Assembly: GCF_016865485.1 (NCBI RefSeq)
Contig: NZ_AP024452.1
Location: 3,122,501 to 3,186,500, forward strand
Length of the DNA stretch: 64,000 bases
Source of the DNA: Luteitalea sp. TBR-22
GTDB lineage: Bacteria > Acidobacteriota > Vicinamibacteria > Vicinamibacterales > Vicinamibacteraceae
Direction of reading: 5' to 3'
Both the position numbers and the translations under genes were made by a program. Under the pieces are notes generated by a model, which was not told where the DNA came from, searched no databases, and saw nothing but the letters and a program-made list of their open reading frames with translations. This document shows, piece after piece, positions 4,082 through 34,070 of this stretch; within the stretch, counting starts at the first letter, position 1; every line of letters begins with the position of its first letter.

Positions 4082-6535
4082 TCAGGTGCGGGCCGACACG
4101 ACCAGATAGGCAGCCACCGCGACGAAGAGGATGTTCGGCGCCCATGCCGCAATCGGCGGGGCCAGGACACCGGCGCTGCCCACGGCGGCAAACAGGCTCT
4201 GGGTGGTCCAGTAGAGGATCGCGAGCACGATGCCAATCCCGATCCCGAACAGCGTGCCCTTCCTCCCGGTCGTCACGCCGAACGGGATGGCAATCATCGT
4301 CATGATCAGCGTGATGAACGGGAAGGCCATCTTCCGGTGCATGGCCACCTGCAAGGGCACGGTGTTGTAGCCGGCCTTCTCGAGTTCGGCGATGTGGTCA
4401 CGAAGCTGTCCGAGCTTGAGACGCTCGGCCATCACGGCTTCGGGTTCCTCGACGCCGAAATAGTCGGCCGTCTCGAGAGTGACGGTGCGGGTGGGGAAGA
4501 CCTCGAAGTCGGTCACGGCGTTGCGGTCGCCGAACGTGCGGGTCCACCCGAGATCGGATCGCCAGGTCGTGCTGCTCATGTTGGTCGACACGCGGGCGTA
4601 GGTCCGCCCCGTGACGTTCCAGCCGCGCGTCCCGAACGTGTAGACGGTGAGGTCCTCGAGCCTGCCGGCGCGGGCATCGAACCGCCCGTAGTGATACAGC
4701 TCGCCGCTGCTGCCCGCCATCCACTGCCGCGAAGCCAGGCCGTAGCGGCTCCTGGTCGGCGTCCCGCTCCTGATGGTGTCGCGCAGTTCCTCGGCACGCC
4801 TGTTGGAGGCTGCCAGGATGCTCTGCTCCATGCCGAACAGCACCCCGCTCCACATCAACCCGAAGGCCAGCATGGGAATCGCGGCGCGGTACAACGAGAC
4901 CCCGCATGCCTGCATCACTGTCAGCTCACTGGTCCGGGTGAGCAGGCCCACGGTGACCAGCGTGCCGACAAGTGCGGCCATGGCCGTGATGTAGTACGTG
5001 TACTGCGGTGTCGAATACGCGAAGAAACTCAGCAGCGTCTGCCCGGTCGTCTTGCCCTTGAAGAGGTATTCGCTGTAGTCGGTGAAGATGGCGATGTAGA
5101 ACACCGCCAGCATGCCCAGGAAGGTGACCCCGAAGACCCGAAGGTAGATGCGGCTCAGGTACCGATCCAGGATGTTGAACGTCGGCAGGATGCCTTGAGG
5201 CACCTTGATGACGACCACCGTGCCGCTTCGGCGTGGGGCAGCCGCCGACGCCTGCGCAGGCTGCCGGGGGGCGGCATCCTCGACGGTGACCGCCCGCCCG
5301 CGGGACGATACCGACGGGGCGCCGACGCGGCGCAGCAGGCCGCCAAGAGCCTGCGGCACGGGAATTCGGAGGCTGGGGGAGAACTCGTAGCCGCGCGTCT
5401 TCATCACCAGCAGGACGAGCCCGGCCCCACCCAGCAGCACGTTGGGTATCCAGAGCGCGAACTCCGCCGGCACCTTCTGGCCCTTGGCCAACGCCTCACC
5501 CATGTACATCAGCACGTAGTACACGAGCACCACGGCGATGCCGATCACGAAACCGGCGTTCTTGCCATCCTTCCGGTGTGACACGCCCAGGCCGAGGGCG
5601 ATGAGCCCGAACACCAGACAGGCCACCGGGATGGTGTACTTGCGCTGGATGGCCATGATCGGGTTGTGCGGCGACATGCCCTGTTCTCGCAACTGGCGGG
5701 CCTTTGTCCGCAGCTGCGGGATGGTCATCTCGTTGTCGCCGGGTGTCAGCCCCTGTCGGGGGAACACCGTCTCGGGATCGAGCGACACGGTCAGCGACTC
5801 GAACGACTGGAGCTCGTACTGCGCCGGGGTGTCGACTTTCGACCGGTGCATGATCCCGTCCTCGAGGATGAGATCCACGCGGCGCGTCTTCGGATCGAGC
5901 ACGAAGTGCCCCCGGTCGGCAGTCAGCAACTGCGGCTCGCCCGGGTTCCGGGTGTCGGAGAGGAAGACGCCCTTCCAGCCCCGGGTGTTGGCCGGCACGT
6001 CGCGCACGTACAGGACGAGGTTCGGGAACTCCTCGAAGAACACGCGAGGGCGGACGTCGCTCTCGGCCTTGGCCTGGATGATGCGGAACGTGATGTCGCG
6101 GAACGTCTGGTTGGCCCGCGGCATGGCCTCGATCATGGTGTAGGCGGTGGCGGCGGTCGCCAGCACCGCCATCAGGCCGACGGGCCTCAGGATCCGGTAG
6201 AGGCTCACGCCACAGGCCTGCATGGCCACCGCCTCGCGGTCCGCTGACAGCCGGCCCAGCGCCATCAGCAGACCGACGAGCAGACTGATGGGGATGGTCA
6301 AGGCCAACGACGAGGGGAGCAGCGTCAGGAGGATGCGCCCGATCGTCGGCAGGTTCACGCCCTTGGCGATCAGCTTCTCGGCGACGTCCATGATCGTCGG
6401 GATCTGGAGCAGGAACGTCAGGATGAGGAGCGTCAGCCCGAACGGCGCGAGCGTCTCGCGGATGATGTAGCGGTCGAGCGTGCGGAGCATGCTGGGAGAT
6501 CGTGGGGCAGGGCGCGAATGCCGCGCCGTGCTCAT
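4082..6535 (-). CDS. Fused LptF-LptG LPS-export permease
   Basis: This 817-residue protein contains two complete YjgP/YjgQ permeases in one chain. Domain 1 (about 16-400) starts MLRTLDRYIIRETLAPF and domain 2 (about 447-817) restarts NILDRYLSRIYLRVFGV. Each carries the same signature after its second helix (MQACGVSLYRIL and MQACGVSLYRAA), a periplasmic beta-jellyroll, and three C-terminal helices. In other bacteria LptF and LptG are separate and pair with an LptB dimer to extract lipopolysaccharide from the inner membrane. Here they are joined by a roughly 45-residue Pro/Ala/Arg-rich linker. LptB and LptC/A are encoded at 28.5-31.3 kb. An internal ATG at 6490 is an equally plausible start. 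The gene follows the antiporter by 38 bp. Confidence 0.9.
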   Translation of the reverse strand: MSTARHSRPAPRSPSMLRTLDRYIIRETLAPFGLTLLILTFLLQIPTIMDVAEKLIAKGVNLPTIGRILLTLLPSSLALTIPISLLVGLLMALGRLSADREAVAMQACGVSLYRILRPVGLMAVLATAATAYTMIEAMPRANQTFRDITFRIIQAKAESDVRPRVFFEEFPNLVLYVRDVPANTRGWKGVFLSDTRNPGEPQLLTADRGHFVLDPKTRRVDLILEDGIMHRSKVDTPAQYELQSFESLTVSLDPETVFPRQGLTPGDNEMTIPQLRTKARQLREQGMSPHNPIMAIQRKYTIPVACLVFGLIALGLGVSHRKDGKNAGFVIGIAVVLVYYVLMYMGEALAKGQKVPAEFALWIPNVLLGGAGLVLLVMKTRGYEFSPSLRIPVPQALGGLLRRVGAPSVSSRGRAVTVEDAAPRQPAQASAAAPRRSGTVVVIKVPQGILPTFNILDRYLSRIYLRVFGVTFLGMLAVFYIAIFTDYSEYLFKGKTTGQTLLSFFAYSTPQYTYYITAMAALVGTLVTVGLLTRTSELTVMQACGVSLYRAAIPMLAFGLMWSGVLFGMEQSILAASNRRAEELRDTIRSGTPTRSRYGLASRQWMAGSSGELYHYGRFDARAGRLEDLTVYTFGTRGWNVTGRTYARVSTNMSSTTWRSDLGWTRTFGDRNAVTDFEVFPTRTVTLETADYFGVEEPEAVMAERLKLGQLRDHIAELEKAGYNTVPLQVAMHRKMAFPFITLIMTMIAIPFGVTTGRKGTLFGIGIGIVLAILYWTTQSLFAAVGSAGVLAPPIAAWAPNILFVAVAAYLVVSART

Positions 6536-6573: not shown

Positions 6574-8538
6574 TCATGACGCGGCGCTGGCGAGGGCCGA
6601 AAGCGCGCGGCGCTGGTCCGGGGTGCCGGCAATGGCCAGCAGGTCGTGCGGCTCGAGGGCCGTCTCGGCGCCAGGGTTGGGCTGCATCTGCCCGTCGCGC
6701 ATGAGGCCCACGACCGTCGCCCCGGTCCGTGCCCGGATGCCCAGGTCGCCGAGACTCGCGCCCGCCAGCTGGCTGCCGGGGTGGACCTCGACCCACGCGA
6801 AATCGAACAGCTGACTTGCCGCCCCGAGTTGCACCAGCGTCTGGTAGTCGCTGTCGTCGCCGAACAGCGGCGCGTACATCTCCTGGCGGAGTTGCGTGCT
6901 CACACGGTGCACCTCGGCGACACCGTAGTCGAGATGCAGGAGCGACTGGCGCACCATCTCCAGCCCGGCCTCGAGTTCCGGCTGGACCACCTCGGTGATA
7001 CCCCGTGCCTGCAACTGCTTCAACTGCTCGGCTCCCTCGGCCCGCGCGACGATCCGGACGACGGGGGAGAGGCGCCGCACCGCGTCGATGATGGCTTCGG
7101 TGACGCTCACGACCGGCACCGTCACCAGCACGAGCCGCGCGTGGGCGACGTGTGCCGCCTCGAGCACGACCGCCTGAGTCGCGTCACCGAACACCACGGT
7201 CAGCCCGTCCTCCCGGGCCTGTTCGAATCGGCGATAGTCCAACTCGAGCAGTACCGCAGGCAACTGCAGGCGGCGCAGGAAGGTCGTCGTGAAGCGGCCC
7301 ACGCGACCGCCGCCCACGATGACCACGTGGTCGCGCACGCCGGCGGCTGGCATGTTGATGGTGTGAACCGGCTCGGTGTCGGACCGCCGTCGCCACCAGG
7401 CGTAGACCGGCGAGGTGAGTCCGGACACCAGCGGCGTCAGGACCATGCTGAGGACGGCCGTGTTCAGGAGCAGCGCGAACGCCGAGGCATCGAGGCCCCC
7501 GGCGGCCAGGCCGACCTTGCCGAGCACGAACGAGAACTCGCCGATCTGCCAGAGGCCGAGCGCGACGGCCAGCGGGACGACGTTCCGGTAGCCGAATGCG
7601 TACGACACGCCGCCCAGGATGAACGCCTTTCCGATCAGGATCGCCATCAGCAACAGCGCCACCGGCCCGGCCATCGTGAGCAACTGTCGCGGGTCGATCA
7701 GCATGCCTACCGAGGCGAAGAACAGCATGCCGAACACGTCGCGGAGCGGAATGATGTCGCTCAGCGCCTGGTGCGCGTAATCGGATTCGCTGAGGACCAG
7801 GCCGGCGACGAAGGCGCCGAAGGCGAAGGACAGGCCGAACAGGTACGTGACGTAGCCGATGCCGAGGCCGATCGCCGTGATGGCGAGCAGGAACAGCTCC
7901 CGTGACTGGCGGACGGCGATGAACTGCATCAGCCGCGGCAGGAACCTGGTGCCCACCACGACCATCAGCGCGAGGAAGATCACGGCCTTCACGCCCGCCG
8001 CGGCAACGGCTCGCAGACCCGCTTCCGGCTGCGAGAGGGTCGGCAGCAGGATCATCAGGGGCACCACCAGGAGGTCCTGGGCGATCAGGATGCCCACCAT
8101 CACGCGGCTCGAGAGGGTGCCGAGCTGCCCCTGAGCCATCAGGGTCTTCAGGATGACCATGGTGCTGCTCAGCGAGATGGCGGCCCCCAGCCACAGGGAC
8201 GGCCGCCAGTCCCACCCGAGCACGGACCCGACGCCGAAGCCGAGCAGTATCACCAATGCCATCTGGATCGGGGTTCCGATCAGGGCGATGGCGCGCACCG
8301 GCTGCAGTTGCTTGAGCGAGAACTCCAGGCCCAGCGCGAACAGGAGCAAAGCGACGCCGACCTCGGCCAGCAGCTCGATGTCGTGTGTGTTGGTGATCGC
8401 CTGGCCGATGGAATGGGGGCCGATCACCACGCCCGCGAGGATGTAGCCGAGGATCAGCGGCTGCTTGAGGAACTGCGCAGCGAGTCCGCCGGCGAGGCTG
8501 GCGACGATGACGATGGCGAGGTCGGCGGCGATGCCCAT
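6574..8538 (-). CDS. CPA2-family K+/H+ antiporter with RCK domain (YbaL/KefB-like)
   Basis: A 654-residue inner-membrane cation:proton antiporter. Residues 1-395 hold about 12 helices of the Na/H exchanger fold. Residues about 400-515 are a TrkA-N/RCK Rossmann domain ([11 protein letters not shown], then [12 protein letters not shown]) that would bind a nucleotide. Residues about 565-650 resemble TrkA-C ([21 protein letters not shown]). The family exchanges K+ or Na+ for protons and is gated by nucleotide or thiol ligands. No KefF-like ancillary protein is nearby, and the domain order fits YbaL best. It starts with ATG and precedes lptFG on the same strand, but a functional link to LPS export is not implied. 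Confidence 0.88.
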
Positions 8539-8832: not shown

Positions 8833-9729
8833 CTATTCGTCCTGAGCCGACGGCGCGTCGCTCTCCGCCCCTTCACCCGGGCGCTCGACCGCGAGTGATC
8901 GCTGCGCCTTCAGATCGTCAAGGATGCGCTCGAGGGTCTCGATGACCTCTTCAGGCTCGACGTCGGTCTTCTTGAAACTGAGCTGGAAGGCGAACTGCCT
9001 GGTCGGCGCCTTGTAGCTGAACGTGAACGGCTTGGGCCGGGCCCCGCCACGCCGGGCGGTCTTGCTCTTGACCTGCTCGCGGAGCTCCTGGCGCGTCATG
9101 CCACCGCTTCGCGACATCTGCTCGACCAGGGCTGCCATCTTCTCCGGTTCGCCTTGCCTAACTACCTGTAAAAGCAACGACTTGGAGGAAATGTCGGCCA
9201 GCCGACAAAGCTGCTTGATGTGCTCGGGCATCTGGTTCAGCGAGAGCGACTCGGTGATCACCGTGCGGCTCTTGCCAAGCTTCTGCGCGAGGGTCTCGTG
9301 TGTGTACCCGGCCTTCTGGCACAGGGCGTGGAGTGCTTCGGCCTCCTCGAACGGCGTGAGGTCCTTGCGCTGGATGTTCTCGACCAGCGCGATCTCGAGG
9401 ATCCCCACGTCATCCACATCGCGGATGACCACGGGCAACTCCTCGATCCCGGCGCGGACGGCCGCCTGGTAGCGACGCTCCCCGGCGACGATCTGGAAGC
9501 GGGACCCGCGCTGCCGGACCACGATCGGCTCGATGAGGCCCTGTTCCTTCACCGACGAGATCAGCTCGGTGAGGTCCCCCATCACTTGCCGAGGCTGGTT
9601 GGGATTCGGGTCGATCTGCTCGATCGGAATCATGCGGCCCACGGGCGCACCAGCCGAAGCCGTGAGCGTCTCGACGTAATGCGCGTCATGGCGCATGCGC
9701 ACCGATTCCGGCAATCCGCGCTTAGACAC
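8833..9729 (-). CDS. parB: Chromosome partitioning protein ParB
   Basis: A 298-residue centromere-binding CTPase. The ParB/Srx domain carries GERRYQA at residues 83-89 and ENIQR at 117-121, the two conserved CTP-binding boxes. A helix-turn-helix follows (TLAQKLGKSRTVITESLSL), then a Lys/Arg-rich linker and a C-terminal dimerisation segment. The N-terminal LPES-like stretch before PIEQIDPNPNQPR is the usual ParA-contact region. It starts with GTG and overlaps the parA stop by 8 bp, so the pair is translationally coupled. ParB loads at parS and spreads to drive origin segregation. I saw no copy of the canonical parS palindrome in this window. Confidence 0.95.
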   Translation of the reverse strand: MSKRGLPESVRMRHDAHYVETLTASAGAPVGRMIPIEQIDPNPNQPRQVMGDLTELISSVKEQGLIEPIVVRQRGSRFQIVAGERRYQAAVRAGIEELPVVIRDVDDVGILEIALVENIQRKDLTPFEEAEALHALCQKAGYTHETLAQKLGKSRTVITESLSLNQMPEHIKQLCRLADISSKSLLLQVVRQGEPEKMAALVEQMSRSGGMTRQELREQVKSKTARRGGARPKPFTFSYKAPTRQFAFQLSFKKTDVEPEEVIETLERILDDLKAQRSLAVERPGEGAESDAPSAQDE

Positions 9730-27021: not shown

Positions 27022-28467
27022 CTAGTACAGCACCTTGCGCTGGTTCGACGTCGGGATGCGAAGTTCCTCGCGGTACTTCGCGATGGTCCTGCGCGCGAGC
27101 ACGAGCCCCTCGCGCTGCAGGATGCTGACGATCTTCGAGTCGCTGAGCGGCTTGCGGCCGTCCTCGGCCTCGATGATCTTGCGGATCCGCTGCTTGATCG
27201 TCACCGACGAGACGCTCTCGCCGAACGAGCTGCTGATGCCGCTGTGGAAGAAGTACTTCATCTCGAACACGCCCTGCGGCGTGTGCATGTACTTGTTGTT
27301 GACCACCCGGCTGACCGTGCTCTCGTGCATGCCGATGTCCTCGGCGACGTCGCGGAGCACCAGCGGGCGCAGGTGCTCGATCCCGTGATCCAGGAACTCC
27401 TTCTGGAACTGGATGATCGAGTTGGCGACCTTGATGATGGTCTTCTGCCGCTGGTCCACCGACTTGAGCAGCCACAGCGCCGACCGGAACTTCTCCTTCA
27501 CGTAGGCGCGCGTCTCGGCCGCCGACTCGTCGTTCTTGTTGTCGAGGAGCCGCTTGTACACGGGGCTGATCCGCAGTTGCGGCAGCCCGTCGTCGTTCAG
27601 CACGGCGACGTACTGGTCCTCGACCTTGACGATGTAGACGTCCGGCATCACGTACTGCGAGGGGGCCGGGTTGAAGCGGCTGCCGGGCTTGGGATCGAGA
27701 TGCCTGATGATCTCGATGTGCTCCTTGAGCTGCTCGATCGGCATCGCCATCCGCTTGGCGATCTCGGGCACCTGGTGGTTCTGCAGCAGGCGCAGATGCT
27801 CGGTGACGATGACCTCGGCTGGCGTATCGGCGTGCCCGAGGTGGCGCAACTGCAGGGTCAGGCACTCCTGCAGGTCGCGCGCCGCGACCCCGACCGGATC
27901 CAGGTGCTGGAGGACGGAGAGGACCGCCTCGACCTGCGACGCCGACCAGCCGCCCATCTGCGCCAGTTCGTCCACCGACGCCATCAGATACCCGTCGTCG
28001 TTGAGGTTGCCGATGATGGCCTCGCCGATCTCGCGCTGGACCCCGCTGATGTCGGGGCGCATCGACAGCTGCCAGAGCAAATGATCGGCCAATGAGCCGG
28101 AGGTCGAGAGCGTGTTCTCGATCGGCGGCAGTTCCTTGACCTCCACCGGCATCCGCGATCGGTACCCGCCGTCGTCGAGGTACTCGCCGAAGAAGTAGGC
28201 GTAGTCCTGCTCGTCCCAGTTGGCGTCGGGCCGATCGGGCTTGGGCGCTTCCGGCGCCTCGGGCTCGGAGGTCTGTGCCTGGGGCTCCACCGCCTGCAGC
28301 TCCTCGGTGGGCACCTCCTCGAGCATCGGATTCTCGACGATTTCCTGAGTCAGGAGCTCAGCCAGCTCGAGCGTCGTCATCGGCAGGAGCTTGATCGCCT
28401 GCTGCAACGAGGGCGTCAGGACGAGCTTCTGCGAGAGGCGGGTCTGGAGCTTCTGCGTGATGGCCAT
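27022..28467 (-). CDS. rpoN: RNA polymerase sigma-54 factor RpoN
   Basis: A 481-residue sigma factor. Region I (LSQKLVLTPSLQQAIKLLPM) is glutamine/leucine-rich and contacts enhancer-binding activators. An acidic region II follows (about 60-110), then the core-binding domain (IIGNLNDDGYLMASVDELA). The DNA-binding domain ends with the RpoN box ARRTIAKYREELRIP, which reads the -24 element. It requires an AAA+ activator, none of which is encoded in this window. It sits between lptB and hpf, the classical lptB-rpoN-hpf order. Confidence 0.96.
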   Translation of the reverse strand: MAITQKLQTRLSQKLVLTPSLQQAIKLLPMTTLELAELLTQEIVENPMLEEVPTEELQAVEPQAQTSEPEAPEAPKPDRPDANWDEQDYAYFFGEYLDDGGYRSRMPVEVKELPPIENTLSTSGSLADHLLWQLSMRPDISGVQREIGEAIIGNLNDDGYLMASVDELAQMGGWSASQVEAVLSVLQHLDPVGVAARDLQECLTLQLRHLGHADTPAEVIVTEHLRLLQNHQVPEIAKRMAMPIEQLKEHIEIIRHLDPKPGSRFNPAPSQYVMPDVYIVKVEDQYVAVLNDDGLPQLRISPVYKRLLDNKNDESAAETRAYVKEKFRSALWLLKSVDQRQKTIIKVANSIIQFQKEFLDHGIEHLRPLVLRDVAEDIGMHESTVSRVVNNKYMHTPQGVFEMKYFFHSGISSSFGESVSSVTIKQRIRKIIEAEDGRKPLSDSKIVSILQREGLVLARRTIAKYREELRIPTSNQRKVLY

Positions 28468-28494: not shown

Positions 28495-29220
28495 TCAATC
28501 GAGCCGGAAATCGGTCCCGAGGTAAATACGTTTGACCTCCTCGTCGGCCGCCAGTTCGCCCGGCGTTCCGCTCTTGAAGATGGTGCCCGCATGCACAATG
28601 TGCGCCCGATCGGTGATCTTCAGGGTCTCCCGCACATTATGGTCCGTAATCAGCACGCCGATGCCACGATTTTTCAGGTGGAAGATGATTTTCTGGATGT
28701 CGGACACCGCAATCGGGTCGATCCCGGCAAACGGCTCGTCCAGCAGGATGAACTTGGGATTGTTGACGAGCGCCCGCGTAATCTCTACCCGCCGGCGTTC
28801 CCCCCCCGACAGCGTGTAGGCCTTGGCGCGCGCCAGGTGCGACAGCGACAGCTCGGCCAGCAGTTCCCGACACCGGGCCCGGCGCTGTGTAGCATCCAAC
28901 GGCAGTGTCTCGAGAATGGCCAGCACGTTCTGCTCGACCGTGAGTCCGCGGAAGATCGAGGCCTCCTGCGGCAGGTAGGCCAGGCCCTTCCTCGCGCGGA
29001 CGTAAATCGGGTCCTGCGTCACGTCGGCGCCGTCGAGGGTGACCGTGCCGGAGTCGGGCCGGGTCAGGCCGACACACATGTAGAAGGTGGTGGTCTTGCC
29101 GGCGCCGTTGGGACCGAGCAGTCCTACCACCTCTCCCGACTGCACTTCGAGGCTGACGCCAGCCACGACGGTCCGCCCGCCGTAGGCCTTCGTGAGTCGA
29201 TCGGTCTGCAGGATCGCCAT
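28495..29220 (-). CDS. lptB: LPS export ATPase LptB
   Basis: A 241-residue ABC ATPase. Walker A GPNGAGKT is at 36-43, the Q-loop is in [16 protein letters not shown], the signature is LSGGERRR, Walker B is [11 protein letters not shown], and the H-loop is in [16 protein letters not shown] after the Q-loop and the DHNVRET motif are typical of LptB. As a dimer it powers extraction of LPS by LptFG, here the fused protein at 4.1-6.5 kb. Its ATG shares one base with the lptCA stop; the frame continues upstream within that gene as a shadow. Confidence 0.95.
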
Positions 29221-31337
29221 CAGGCCGGCTTGCTCAGGGCGGGGCACGTGCCGGCGGTGCGGCCCTGGGTACGGGTGGACTGGTTGCCGTCCACCGAGAT
29301 CACGTCCGAGGTCCGGTAGAACGTCAGGCGCCGGCCCGTCGTCTCGCGGCATTCGTTGGGGAACTGCTCCAGCACGACGACCGGCGTCCCGCCCATCACG
29401 TAGCGGCCGTCCTTTGTGAAGTAGGTCAGGCGCGCCCCCGTGGCGTGGCGGGTCGCCGTCTGCAGCGTGACCGCGTCGTAGGCCTCGAGGCGATCGAGTT
29501 CGCGACCGCCCTCGAGCAGGTACATCTCGATGCGGTTGCCGCGCAGGTCGCCGTCACGCGTGCTCACCAGGCGGGCCGTGTTGCGCAGGATCGCCTTGCG
29601 CTCCTTGTCCTGGTATTCCAGTTCGCCGGCCGTGCCCGTCGTCACGTTGCGCTCGACCTTCCCGGTCGCCGCGTCCTTCTCTTCCAGTTCCATCACCGTC
29701 CGCGCCTTGCCGACCGCCAGGAGGTTGCCCGACTCCTCGTCCAGCGTGATGGTGTCGCCCTTGATGGACGTCGCCCCCTGCCAGATCTGGGCATCGCCGG
29801 TGTAGACGGCCTTCTTGGTGCGCCGTTCCAGCTTGCTGGCCGTGACGTTGACCGGTTGGTCCTGCTTGAACATGCCGGGCCGCGCCGGCCCGTCGCCGCC
29901 GCCCTGCAGCACCGACCGCACGTCGGTCTCCGCGACGATGTCGTCGCCGCCGGCCAGGATGTTGATGATGCGCGACTGCACCGAGCCGCGCGTGTCGTCG
30001 ATGCGGGCGGTGAGCGCAGTGCCCTCGGCGCTCAGCGTGATGTCGCCCGATTCGGTGCGGTACACCAGGCGCGGCGCCGTTGCCGTGCGGCTCTCGTCCT
30101 TCACCACCACCGCGCCCACGAACGTCGCGCGGTCGATCGACTCGAGCGAACCGCGGGTCTGCAGGTCCAGCGTGTCGGTGGCCGTGATCGTCCGATCGAG
30201 GGCCGCCTGCCCGCGGCCGGCGGCGCGCGTCTCCTTGAAGGTCACGTTCTTGCTGAACGTCGCGCCCGTCAGGCCGCGCCCCGGCTGGCCGATGCCGTTG
30301 AGGGTATCGCCGCTGATGTTCCTGGCCGGCGTCGCGCCATCCTGCGGGACGCGCAACTGCACCGCCTCCTGCGCCGACAGTCCCGTCATCGTCGAGCCGT
30401 CGGCGTCGAGTTGCATGTCGATGAGCGAGGCCGCGAGGCTGCGCCCCGGGCCCTTGCCCTGCCCGCGGAACTGCACGGTCGCCCGCTCGGCCAGCGTGAC
30501 CTGCCGCAACGAACGTCCGTCGGGCTGGTACGCCAGGTTGATGTCGGTGGCCGACAGTTGCTGCAGCGACTGCGGCTCCGGCAACGACACCGACGACTGC
30601 CCGCGCAACTCGACGAGCTCGACGATGTCGGCGGCCGGTTGCATGAACACGGTGACGCTGTCGCCCGAGAGGACCTGCCCTTCGCGGTTCACCGTGGCCG
30701 CCGTGTCGAGCCGGATGTAGCGTTCGGCGCGCGCGAAACCCGCCGACCCGGCGCGCATGTGCGTCTCGCCCTGTCCCCTGCCGTCCGGCCTGATGTCGAT
30801 GCGTGCCTGCTCCAGCATCCACAGGACGTCGCGCGCGTTGTCGTAGGTGGCGCCGACCGACGACCCGGTCATCCGCTCGCGCGTGAACTGCACCTGGCCC
30901 GGGATGCGGATGATGCCGTCGGTGGAGTCGTAGGTCGCCTCGGGCCCGGTCATCGTCAGCTTGTCGGTGGTGACCAGCTTCAGGTTGCCGGTCAGGCGGA
31001 CCTGCGCGTTGTCCTTGGTCACCTCGGCTTCGTCGCCGCTGATCGTGAAGCCGCGGCGATCGTCGCGCGGTGGCACGGTGACGGTGACCGACTGGAACAC
31101 GGTGCGGCCGTCGGGATACGTGCGCAGCCCCTTGTGCTGCAGGTCCATGTCGCGCGCTTCGCCCTTCGTGCGCGTGATCAACCCGCCGCTCGACTCCACG
31201 ACCGCGTTGGGGTCGGTCCGCGGGTCGGTCACCTCGCCCGTGGTGATCGAGCGACCGCGCAGCTGCAGGCCCAGCCAGGTGGCAAAGCCGAGGGCGAAGG
31301 CCGCGAGCAGGTAGCGCAGGAGGCGGCGCGCGCGCAT
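29220..31337 (-). CDS. Fused LptC-LptA periplasmic LPS-transport protein
   Basis: A 705-residue protein with one N-terminal membrane anchor ([20 protein letters not shown], residues 5-24). Residues about 40-190 resemble LptC ([20 protein letters not shown]). Several OstA-type beta-jellyroll segments follow, and residues about 495-640 match LptA closely ([20 protein letters not shown], then [20 protein letters not shown]). E. coli LptC and LptA total about 375 residues, so this chain is nearly twice as long and could span much of the periplasm by itself. It lies between recJ and lptB with 1-bp overlaps on both sides. Fusion is clear from the unbroken frame; domain borders are approximate. Confidence 0.85.
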
Positions 31338-33070
31338 CAGGACACTCCCGGCGCGGCGTCCGGACAGCGCAGATCGGCGACGGTGAGCTCGATGGTCGTC
31401 TCGCCCCGGAACGTCTGCTTGTCGAGGGAGAACGCCAACTGCAGTGCCTGCCGGTGCTGCTCCCAGAGGCCGGCCTTCTCCGCGGCGCGCCAGGCCATGG
31501 CGGAGAACATCCGCCCGTCCTGCCGCAACTGCATCTTCAGGTGCCGTTCCTTGATGCGCCGCGGGGCGCCCACCAGCTCGACGCCGGCGCCGTCGAACAC
31601 CGGCTTGGGGTTGGCCAGCCCGAAGGGCGCCATCTGCTCGAGCCCGGCGATCAGCCGCGAGTCGATGCCCGAGAAGCGGAGCGCCGTGTCGATGCGCAGC
31701 CGCGGCATCAGGTCGGTGGGCTCGAGGCGCTCGAGTCCGTGGGCGTTGATGCGCTCGCGGAACTCCGGGATGCGCCCGGCGTCCATCGTCAGGCCGGCCG
31801 CCTGCTTGTGTCCCCCGTACCTGTGGAACAGGTCGGCGCAGGTGTCCAGCGCGCCGAGCATGTCGAAGGCCGGGATGGAGCGGCAGGACCCGTGCGCGAG
31901 GCCGTCCTCGACCGACAGCACGATGGTCGGCTTGTAGAACGCGTCCACCAGCTTGGAGGCGACGATGCCGATGACGCCGCGATGCCAGCCCTCGCCGGCG
32001 ACGACCAGGACGTTGTGGGCACCGACGTGGATGTCGGTCTCCACCTGCTTCCTCGCCTCGGCGACGATCTCGGCCTCGTAGGCCTGCCGCCGCGCGTTCT
32101 CCTCGCCGAGCTGCTCGGCGAGCCGCCGCACTTCCTCCAGTTGCGTCTCGTCGCTGGCCAGCAACAGGCGCGTCGCGAGGTCGGGCGTACTCATGCGGCC
32201 GGCGGCGTTGATGCGCGGCGCGATCACGAACGACACGTTGAAGCCGTCGATGGCCTTGTTCTGCAGGCCGGCCGACTCCAGCAGCGTCCGCAGGCCGACG
32301 GTGTGCGGGCCCTGCGAGAGCCGCTCGAGACCGAGCTTGGCGATGATGCGGTTCTCGCCGACCAGCGGCACCACGTCGGCGACCGTGCCGATCGCGGCCA
32401 GCTTCAGGAACGCCGGCAGCCACTTCTCGCGCCCGAAGCGCTGGCAGAGCGCCTGCACCACCTTGAACGCCACACCGACGCCGGCCAGGTGCTTGTCCGG
32501 ATACGTGCAGTCGGGCCGCTTGGGATTGATCACGGCCAGCGCCGCCGGGATCTCGGCCTCGGGCTCGTGATGGTCGGTGATGATCAGGTCGACACCGAGC
32601 TCCCGGGCGCGGCGGGCCGCCTCGGCGCTGCGGATGCCGCAGTCCACCGACACGATGACGCGCACCCCCTCGGCGTGCAGGCGCTCCACCGCGGGCACCT
32701 GCAGCCCGTAGCCGTCGCGCAGCCGCTCGGGAATGAAGTGCGTGACGTCGCCGCCGAGCAGTTCGAGGGCCCGGCGCAGGATCACGGTGGAGGTGACGCC
32801 GTCCACGTCGTAGTCGCCGTGGATGGCGATGCGTTCGCGCCGCTCGAGCGCCGCGCAGAGGCGCTCGACCGCCGGCCGCATGTCGGCGAGCCGGTACGGA
32901 TCGAAGAGCTGCGACAGTTCCGGGTGGAGGAACCGGTGCGCTGCCTCGGGGTCGCCGTGGCCGCGATGGCACAACAGGCGGGCGACGACCGGAGACACGT
33001 CGAGGGCCGCGGCCAGCGACTGCGCGGCCGTCTCGTCACACACGACGGGGTCCCAGATCAACGTGCGCAT
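31337..33070 (-). CDS. recJ: Single-stranded-DNA-specific exonuclease RecJ
   Basis: A 577-residue 5'-to-3' ssDNA exonuclease of the DHH family. Motifs include HGDYDVDGVTST (motif I), SVDCGIRS, and DLIITDHHEPE (DHH). The DHHA1 region carries VVAGEGWHRGVIGIVASKL and RYGGHKQAAG. The ATG at 33070 is chosen because MRTLIWDPV and the following helix match the family start. It acts in RecF-pathway recombination and mismatch or base-excision repair. It overlaps lptCA by 1 bp and lies 28 bp after accA. Confidence 0.94.
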   Translation of the reverse strand: MRTLIWDPVVCDETAAQSLAAALDVSPVVARLLCHRGHGDPEAAHRFLHPELSQLFDPYRLADMRPAVERLCAALERRERIAIHGDYDVDGVTSTVILRRALELLGGDVTHFIPERLRDGYGLQVPAVERLHAEGVRVIVSVDCGIRSAEAARRARELGVDLIITDHHEPEAEIPAALAVINPKRPDCTYPDKHLAGVGVAFKVVQALCQRFGREKWLPAFLKLAAIGTVADVVPLVGENRIIAKLGLERLSQGPHTVGLRTLLESAGLQNKAIDGFNVSFVIAPRINAAGRMSTPDLATRLLLASDETQLEEVRRLAEQLGEENARRQAYEAEIVAEARKQVETDIHVGAHNVLVVAGEGWHRGVIGIVASKLVDAFYKPTIVLSVEDGLAHGSCRSIPAFDMLGALDTCADLFHRYGGHKQAAGLTMDAGRIPEFRERINAHGLERLEPTDLMPRLRIDTALRFSGIDSRLIAGLEQMAPFGLANPKPVFDGAGVELVGAPRRIKERHLKMQLRQDGRMFSAMAWRAAEKAGLWEQHRQALQLAFSLDKQTFRGETTIELTVADLRCPDAAPGVS

Positions 33071-33098
33071 GGACAGGGGGTCCCGAGCGGGGACCCGA

Positions 33099-34070
33099 TC
33101 AGGAAGCCGACCCGGCGATCTCGGCGCCGACGCGGCCGATGCGGCGGAACTTCTCGTAGCGGCGGTCGAGCCGCTCGGCCGACGACCACCCCATCGCCTG
33201 CTGCAGGGCGGGCCAGAGGGCTTCGTCGAGCCGGCGTGCCGATTCGTCGTAGTCCTGGTGGGCGCCGCCGAGCGGCTCGGGGATGATGCCGTCGCAGATG
33301 CCACGCCCGACCAGGTCCGGGGCGGTCATCTTCAGCGCGTCGGCAGCCTCGACCTTCTTGGCCGCGTCGCGCCACAGGATCGCCGCGCAGCCCTCGGGCG
33401 GAATCACGCTGTAGACCGCGTACTCCTGCATCAGCACGGTGTCGCCGACCGCGATGCCGAGCGCGCCGCCGCTGCCGCCCTCGCCGGTGACCACGACGAC
33501 GATCGCCGTGTCGAGCACGGCCATCTCGCGCAGGTTCAGGGCGATCGCCTCGGCGATGCCCCGCTCTTCGGACTCCATGCCGGGGTAGGCGGCCGGGGTG
33601 TCCACCAGGCAGATGATCGGTCGCTTGAACTTGGCGGCCATCTGCATCGCCCGGAGGGCCTTGCGATAGCCCTCGGGGCGCGCGTAGCCGAAGTTGCGGG
33701 CGATCTTCTGCTTCGTGTCGCGGCCCTTCTGGTGGCCGACGATCAGCACCGGCTGGTCGTGGTACTGCGCAAAGCCGGCGACGATGGCCTGGTCGTCACC
33801 GAAGCGGCGGTCGCCGTGGATCTCGGTGAACCCGGGCCAGAGCCGGGCTGCGTAGTCGAGCAGGTAGGGGCGCTGCGGGTGGCGCGCCACCAGCACTCGC
33901 TGCCACGGCGTCAGCCGCGCGAAGATGTCCTGGCGCACCTGCCGGGCTCGCGCCTGCAGGCGGGCGATCTCGCCCGCGCGCTCCGGCGTCGAGGGCTGGC
34001 CGGTGAGGTGATCGATCTCCTTCAGGAGGGCGGCGACGGGCTCCTCGAACTCGAGGCTGTCCACGGGCAT
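33099..34070 (-). CDS. accA: Acetyl-CoA carboxylase carboxyltransferase subunit alpha
   Basis: A 323-residue subunit that, with AccD, transfers CO2 from carboxybiotin to acetyl-CoA, making malonyl-CoA for fatty-acid synthesis. Family segments are LEFEEPVAALLKEIDHL, GDRRFGDDQAIVAGFA, VDTPAAYPGMESEERG and GEGGSGGALGIAVGD (oxyanion-hole glycines). Length matches E. coli AccA (319). It lies 11 bp after dnaE, reproducing the dnaE-accA order of E. coli. accD and the biotin subunits are not in the window. Confidence 0.96.
   Translation of the reverse strand: MPVDSLEFEEPVAALLKEIDHLTGQPSTPERAGEIARLQARARQVRQDIFARLTPWQRVLVARHPQRPYLLDYAARLWPGFTEIHGDRRFGDDQAIVAGFAQYHDQPVLIVGHQKGRDTKQKIARNFGYARPEGYRKALRAMQMAAKFKRPIICLVDTPAAYPGMESEERGIAEAIALNLREMAVLDTAIVVVVTGEGGSGGALGIAVGDTVLMQEYAVYSVIPPEGCAAILWRDAAKKVEAADALKMTAPDLVGRGICDGIIPEPLGGAHQDYDESARRLDEALWPALQQAMGWSSAERLDRRYEKFRRIGRVGAEIAGSAS

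Follow-up and report, generated by a model that had tools for sequence, protein, structure and literature searches.

In Escherichia coli the lpt-rpoN cluster has the order lptC-lptA-lptB-rpoN-hpf-ptsN-rapZ, and lptC (576 bp) and lptA (558 bp) are separate genes that by arithmetic encode 191 and 185 residues. The number of LptA units in the E. coli bridge is described as unknown in passages of one paper, in whose model one LptA is about 40 Å long and suffices to bridge about 15 nm (PMC10863985). Passages of a 2014 review speak of fusion proteins in which as many as four OstA domains are joined, and relay a suggestion that spanning the periplasm takes four of these domains (PMC3944529); neither an organism or phylum nor an anchor or an LptFG fusion is named there. 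Diderm Firmicutes, in the relevant part of another paper, possess just one LptF/G homologue, together with a pair of OstA proteins that are each about 200 residues long (PMC5007114). With respect to Acidobacteria, the genes lptF and lptG are described in passages of a 2022 paper as apparently absent (PMC8871954), and an 'LptF/LptG' permease is named in an Acidobacteria genome in a passage of PMC8787282. The literature searched, where subscription papers were largely beyond reach, yielded neither an LptF-LptG fusion nor an LptC-LptA fusion in Acidobacteria, and the exact fusion phrases gave no match there.

The stretch of DNA analysed here (the window) comprises 64,000 nucleotides of the Luteitalea sp. 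TBR-22 genome. Within it, a single gene that we designate lptCA fills the place of E. coli lptC and lptA, and the gene order around it is nearly that of the E. coli lpt-rpoN cluster. The features of the locus are as follows:

27022-28467, minus strand: presumably rpoN, as judged from its translation; downstream of lptB
28495-29220, minus strand: lptB, ATPase; 362 bits with TIGR04406; its ATG overlaps the lptCA stop (TGATG)
29220-31337, minus strand: lptCA fusion gene, 705 residues, membrane-anchored; ATG at 31337, TGA stop at 29222-29220
31257-31337, minus strand: residues 1-27, predicted transmembrane anchor at the N-terminus; modelled with low confidence as a helix at 2-27; the LptC profile begins at residue 15
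30798-31199, minus strand: LptC periplasmic domain, residues ~47-180; Pfam and NCBIfam matches; superposes on 6mit_C
29877-30797, minus strand: middle OstA-type repeats, residues ~181-487; model strands, profile-profile repeats, LptH 4uu4 superposed on 153-292
29517-29870, minus strand: LptA-like OstA domain, residues ~490-607; Pfam, NCBIfam and LptH sequence matches
29223-29516, minus strand: C-terminal further OstA-like part, residues ~608-705; Pfam match below cut-off and profile-profile match
31337-33304, minus strand: upstream frame from the open reading frame list that we take from its translation to be recJ; its stop overlaps the lptCA ATG (TGATG)

The extent of the recJ frame is counted from the first GTG, and the true start is probably later. 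Frames beyond rpoN are presumed from their translations to be hpf, hprK and rapZ, with the hprK-like frame standing where E. coli has ptsN. Shared with E. coli are thus the order, the LptC and OstA domains and the LptC anchor; in contrast to E. coli, the Luteitalea locus encodes one chain of 705 residues with additional OstA repeats between the LptC and LptA parts. An earlier note, made from the sequence alone, had placed a 705-residue protein at 29220-31337 and remarked that it exceeds LptC and LptA together. Both points hold, the chain being nearly twice the 191 plus 185 residues of the two E. coli proteins. The gene lies on the minus strand. The plus-strand reading of 29220-31337 is an antisense open frame and was discarded.

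The two ends of the protein were assigned by profile searches. Pfam LptC (PF06835) matches residues 15-180 with 36.1 bits against a cut-off of 21, and NCBIfam LptC (TIGR04409) scores 53.8 bits against 38. Pfam LptD_N/OstA (PF03968) scores 67.9 bits against a cut-off of 20.4, with its best stretch at residues 502-607; two OstA stretches are found at E 0.01 and three at E 1 (query lacking residue 1). NCBIfam LptA (TIGR03002) gives 66.3 bits, which is below its equivalog cut-off of 71.7, and the C-terminal part is for this reason called LptA-like rather than LptA. Nor is the product a stand-alone soluble periplasmic protein, as LptA is, since it is read in a single frame behind a predicted anchor. 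Among sequences of solved structures, the sole match with E < 0.001 is LptH (4uu4), against residues 491-592. Relatives were collected in alignment A4 (the window protein plus 37 others), in which all 38 rows match both NCBIfam LptA and NCBIfam LptC, and these matches are therefore not due to chance; the loci were found through the LptC model, so that the sample is biased for LptC. A single N-terminal anchor is predicted, helix 2-27 being the only helix in the structural model, where confidence is low. For 37 of 39 loci, a mean hydropathy of at least 1.5 was obtained in the top-scoring 19-residue window close to the LptC match, a figure biased upwards by the choice of the best window.

The middle of the protein is less readily recognised by Pfam. 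When fragments were searched, LptD_N gave 12.3 bits at about 180-340 and no OstA match was found at about 320-490; a fragment covering residues 600-705 gave 19.9 bits, just below the cut-off of 20.4. Six segments of A4 (45-185, 186-300, 300-400, 395-487, 490-610 and 585-700; each with 38 rows except 300-400, which has 35) were then compared profile against profile. Thirteen of the 15 segment pairs matched with probabilities of 87.2-98.4%, the highest being that of 585-700 with 395-487 (98.4%), and the two weak pairs (32.6% and 40.1%) both involve 300-400. Reversed-target controls (n=30) reached at most 7.7%. Neighbouring segments overlap by 1, 6 or 26 residues, and the aligned offsets differ from those the overlaps would give. 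Because the pairs score high and the reversed controls low, the middle of the lptCA product is, as far as profiles can tell, built from the OstA-type unit, and the chain carries several such units. The parts named in the earlier note, a single N-terminal anchor, an LptC-like part and extra OstA-like segments, are thereby recovered, the anchor as a prediction; its recognisable LptA domain is seen in the LptA and OstA profile matches, but falls short of the curated TIGR03002 cut-off.

The structure was modelled with AlphaFold2 from four sequences: the window protein, L003 (84% identical), and partial L004 and L005. The model has a mean pLDDT of 69.2 and a pTM of 0.62. Residues 47-480 form strands throughout (25 long strands, split ones merged) with ten-residue mean pLDDT values of 67-96, and pLDDT falls below 50 at residues 1-4, 16-40, 480-489, 548-556 and 559-705. 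Folded alone, the C-terminal 231 residues gave a mean pLDDT of 39.7. The β strands are accordingly predicted to be continuous over 47-480, and the C-terminal third is placed by sequence profiles. The note had proposed to model the protein and look for continuous jellyroll repeats; such a run of strands appears over 47-480, but the C-terminal third of the model is unreliable.

Foldseek with the model retrieved LptD chains, LptC (6mit_C, TM by target 0.71; 4b54_A, 0.80) and LptA (2r1a_C, 0.79). With VIA-align, a comparison that covers residues 51-499 well, LptH 4uu4 superposed on model residues 153-292 (Z 14.0, rmsd 2.0, 119 residues) and LptC 6mit_C on residues 44-239 (Z 13.5, rmsd 2.7, 145 residues). 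The LptH superposition crosses the end of the LptC domain at about residue 180, which fits an unbroken sheet in the model. MORN-repeat proteins reached Z values of up to 12.2 with the same model, and the fold match alone is for that reason not strong evidence. They were set aside, together with radial-spoke proteins (up to 10.7) and OspA (up to 7.4), as common β arrangements and not relatives. A separate measure is the alternation of hydrophobicity along strands: for the A4 average over 33 strands, none of 500 within-strand shuffles reached the observed value. By part, the observed value was reached by 2 of 500 shuffles in the middle, 12 of 500 in the LptC part and 24 of 500 in the LptA part, the alternation being weaker in the end parts than in the middle.

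Two estimates of length were made. LptH residues 30-170 (141 residues) cover 140 residues of the model; at this density, with 40 Å for every 141 residues, the stretch 47-690 gives an estimated bridge of about 18 nm. Strands are spaced 4.8 Å apart, so that the modelled part alone, with its 25 strands, is estimated at about 12 nm. By residue density the chain amounts to about 4.5 LptA lengths, enough for the periplasm. These lengths bear on whether the chain instead works as a multimer, end to end or side by side, in the manner of LptA fibres. LptA oligomers are indeed described in passages of PMC3944529 and PMC10863985, but one Luteitalea chain would already span about 18 nm by scaling and each chain has its own anchor, so that head-to-tail chaining would be expected to leave anchors in the middle of the periplasm; we regard such multimers as quite improbable. 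A bridge of one chain remains the preferred reading.

The source genome consists of one contig, with a completeness rating of 100%, and it was searched with four profiles for other lptC or lptA genes. PF06835 matches lptCA only; PF03968 matches lptCA and one 829-residue frame; PF13100 finds the same two frames, lptCA solely below cut-off; and the A4 profile, at E up to 10, finds lptCA and the same second frame and nothing else. The 829-residue frame encodes an 813-residue protein with LptD_2 and LptD_N domains, which is LptD. At profile sensitivity the complete genome thus contains no second lptC and no stand-alone lptA, which answers the check for a separate lptA proposed in the note; a short, diverged LptA below that sensitivity may be present elsewhere. 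LpxC is also present, and lipid A is therefore probably made. These genes are relevant to the cargo. An Lpt-like system occurs in Borrelia, which is without LPS (passages of PMC10353723), and the Luteitalea chain could by analogy carry another lipid or glycolipid; against this stand LpxC and LptD in the genome and an LptB whose score exceeds the cut-off of TIGR04406, the model for LptB of LPS export, and we hold a cargo other than LPS to be highly improbable. LPS is taken as the cargo below.

The distribution of the fusion was determined in 149 genomes drawn evenly from Acidobacteriota, and the counts apply to this phylum. PF06835 was found in 93 of the 149 genomes and PF03968 in 120, and the A4 fusion profile matched 142 at E 0.001, 131 of them strongly. 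The 11 weak matches (E > 1e-10) belong to six genomes of a divergent family, f29, and to G012, G041, G090, G110 and G116; they may represent LptD rather than the fusion, as is the case for G110. Among the matches listed (115 genomes), one frame spans the A4 model end to end in 91, and a further 20 have a match that extends to the end of the model in a frame of at least 750 residues and covers less of its start. G008 has a match to the start only, in an 811-residue frame, and G032 and G092 have partial matches (627 and 698 residues). Nine of the rows listed contain an in-frame stop, which in G023, G045 and G146 closes the match as its last codon, a natural stop; G056, G066, G089, G130 and G148 have unbroken frames of 668-894 residues despite the stop in the row. 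Fusion frames among the matches listed measure 607-963 residues from stop to stop, six of more than 1000 being set aside. In G108 (L059, contig C75), the ninth row with an in-frame stop, LptC lies in a 300-residue frame and the rest in another frame, before lptB; this arrangement suggests that the gene is broken or the assembly faulty, and it was left out of the alignments.

Thirty-nine loci, picked from the 93 PF06835 genomes at about one per family, were studied closely. In 37 of them LptB follows the fusion on the same strand, no more than about 430 bases away where the gene is unbroken; it does not adjoin in L052 and L076. In L052 (G085, contig C1) the fusion is at 365857 and lptB at 2089641 of the same contig. 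L076 (G110) was rejected as a fusion: it is LptD-like, with OstA at 32-126 and no LptB nearby, and was dropped from A4, though it is still in A3 and hence in the 39/39 Pfam count of that alignment. A RecJ homologue is present in 16 of the 39 locus stretches, some of which stop at contig ends.

Within f29, seven genomes lack an A4 match and six have weak ones. Five f29 genomes were inspected, and three of them have a protein of 553-579 residues that ends just before lptB:

L105, 2910-4646: f29 protein before lptB
L101, 3612-5333: f29 protein before lptB
L103, 3210-4868: f29 protein before lptB

Two of the three starts are TTG or GTG codons chosen by script. A hydrophobic start passes the threshold in two of the proteins and is seen in L105 by eye only. 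The C-terminal Pfam OstA match is 20.6 bits in one (cut-off 20.4), 17.0 in another, which is under the cut-off, and absent from the third. An f29 profile matches A4 with 93.1% probability over 132 columns, f29 404-537 aligning with A4 114-256; by this alignment the relationship is homology of repeats and does not run end to end. In G026 lptB is preceded by a frame that reads as a different protein, and a start with an anchor was looked for before lptB in G154 and was not found.

Conservation of a single frame is pertinent to the fate of the protein after export. Were the chain cut at that stage, LptC and a long LptA would act separately and might oligomerise. Residues 480-489, directly before the LptA part, have low model confidence and carry an 8-residue insertion in L004, and they could form an exposed linker. 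The frame is nevertheless kept from end to end in 91 of the 115 genomes listed, the long f29 protein likewise stands before lptB (three aligned), and cutting would presumably remove the reason to stay joined. Cleavage appears quite improbable, and an intact chain is assumed in what follows.

A second fusion is encoded in the same window:

4082-6535, minus strand: lptFG fusion gene, 817 residues; LptF half at residues 20-376, LptG half at 455-812

Nearby frames, read by eye, are presumably a KefB-type cation:proton antiporter (6574-8538, minus strand) and a ParB-type partition protein (8833-9729, minus strand). PF03739 matches twice inside the one frame at 4082-6535. The whole chain scores 340.4 bits with NCBIfam LptF (cut-off 230) and 352.4 with LptG (cut-off 240), above both cut-offs. 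The first half scores 226.1 bits with LptF versus 148.1 with LptG and the second 214.3 with LptG versus 126.8 with LptF; alone, the halves are just under the respective cut-offs (226.1 against 230; 214.3 against 240). Each half therefore fits its own model better, as in the LptB2FG pair, from which the Luteitalea protein differs in that LptF and LptG are fused. By topology the joined ends of LptF and LptG should both be cytoplasmic, and a linker of about 78 residues, the distance separating the two matches, is for this reason sufficient. Passages of PMC10094684 locate both LPS and the helix of LptC between helix 5 of LptF and helix 1 of LptG, and the linker, which leads into LptG helix 1, may hold this LPS/LptC-helix gate together.

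PF03739 matches are present in 148 of the 149 Acidobacteriota genomes, the exception being G029. Among the matches listed, LptFG is encoded in one frame of 743-948 residues in 96 of 98 genomes, and the other two frames (420 and 391 residues) are both ended by a contig end. In f29, 12 of 13 genomes have LptFG frames of 733-815 residues, and in the remaining genome there are two short frames, each on a different contig; five of the 13 are also among the 98. G015 has separate LptF_LptG frames of 783 and 781 residues on contigs C163 and C134, suggesting two LptFG fusions. As read from gene sequence, one-chain LptCA and one-chain LptFG are widespread in Acidobacteriota. The LptC-LptA fusion, which the earlier note had treated as a single oddity, is instead the usual form in the phylum and is accompanied by LptFG. 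The set represents a different economy from that of diderm Firmicutes.

Taken together, these results indicate that the lptCA product is most likely the covalent, anchored LPS bridge of the Acidobacteriota cell in one chain, as the sequence profiles and the model suggest, and that it probably replaces the separate proteins that other bacteria stack as a periplasmic LPS bridge. The N-terminal helix would anchor the chain beside the LptB2-LptFG transporter, from which the LptC domain would accept LPS. The OstA repeats would form one continuous V-shaped β groove in which the acyl chains slide, and the C-terminal LptA-like end would dock on the N-terminal jellyroll of outer-membrane LptD. We infer the full-length groove, LPS transport, LptD docking and one chain per bridge. 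The covalent slide proposed in the note accords with the single chain, the extra repeats, the missing stand-alone LptA and the strands over 47-480, but the C-terminal third has pLDDT values below 50 from residue 559. The idea of a covalent bridge fits the locus and is not new, as multi-OstA fusions are already in print (passages of PMC3944529); the phylum-wide layout and the LptFG chain were not found in the literature searched.

PF03739 in 148 of 149 genomes contradicts the absence of lptF and lptG stated in the passages of PMC8871954. A one-chain LptFG fixes which permease ends are tied together, and a one-chain bridge of fixed length offers a natural test, in which the number of repeats in the gene can be set against the width of the periplasm. 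More tentatively, and as a possibility that we rate below an even chance, the machine would consist of four core Lpt polypeptides (LptB, LptFG, LptCA and LptD), the gene would fix the length and stoichiometry of the bridge, and LptCA would be a covalent ruler. If so, the length of the ruler, which varies by species, would set or track periplasm width in place of LptA oligomerisation. We conclude that lptCA and LptFG together constitute a real variant of the Lpt machine that is conserved and widespread across Acidobacteriota and through which LPS would be transported.
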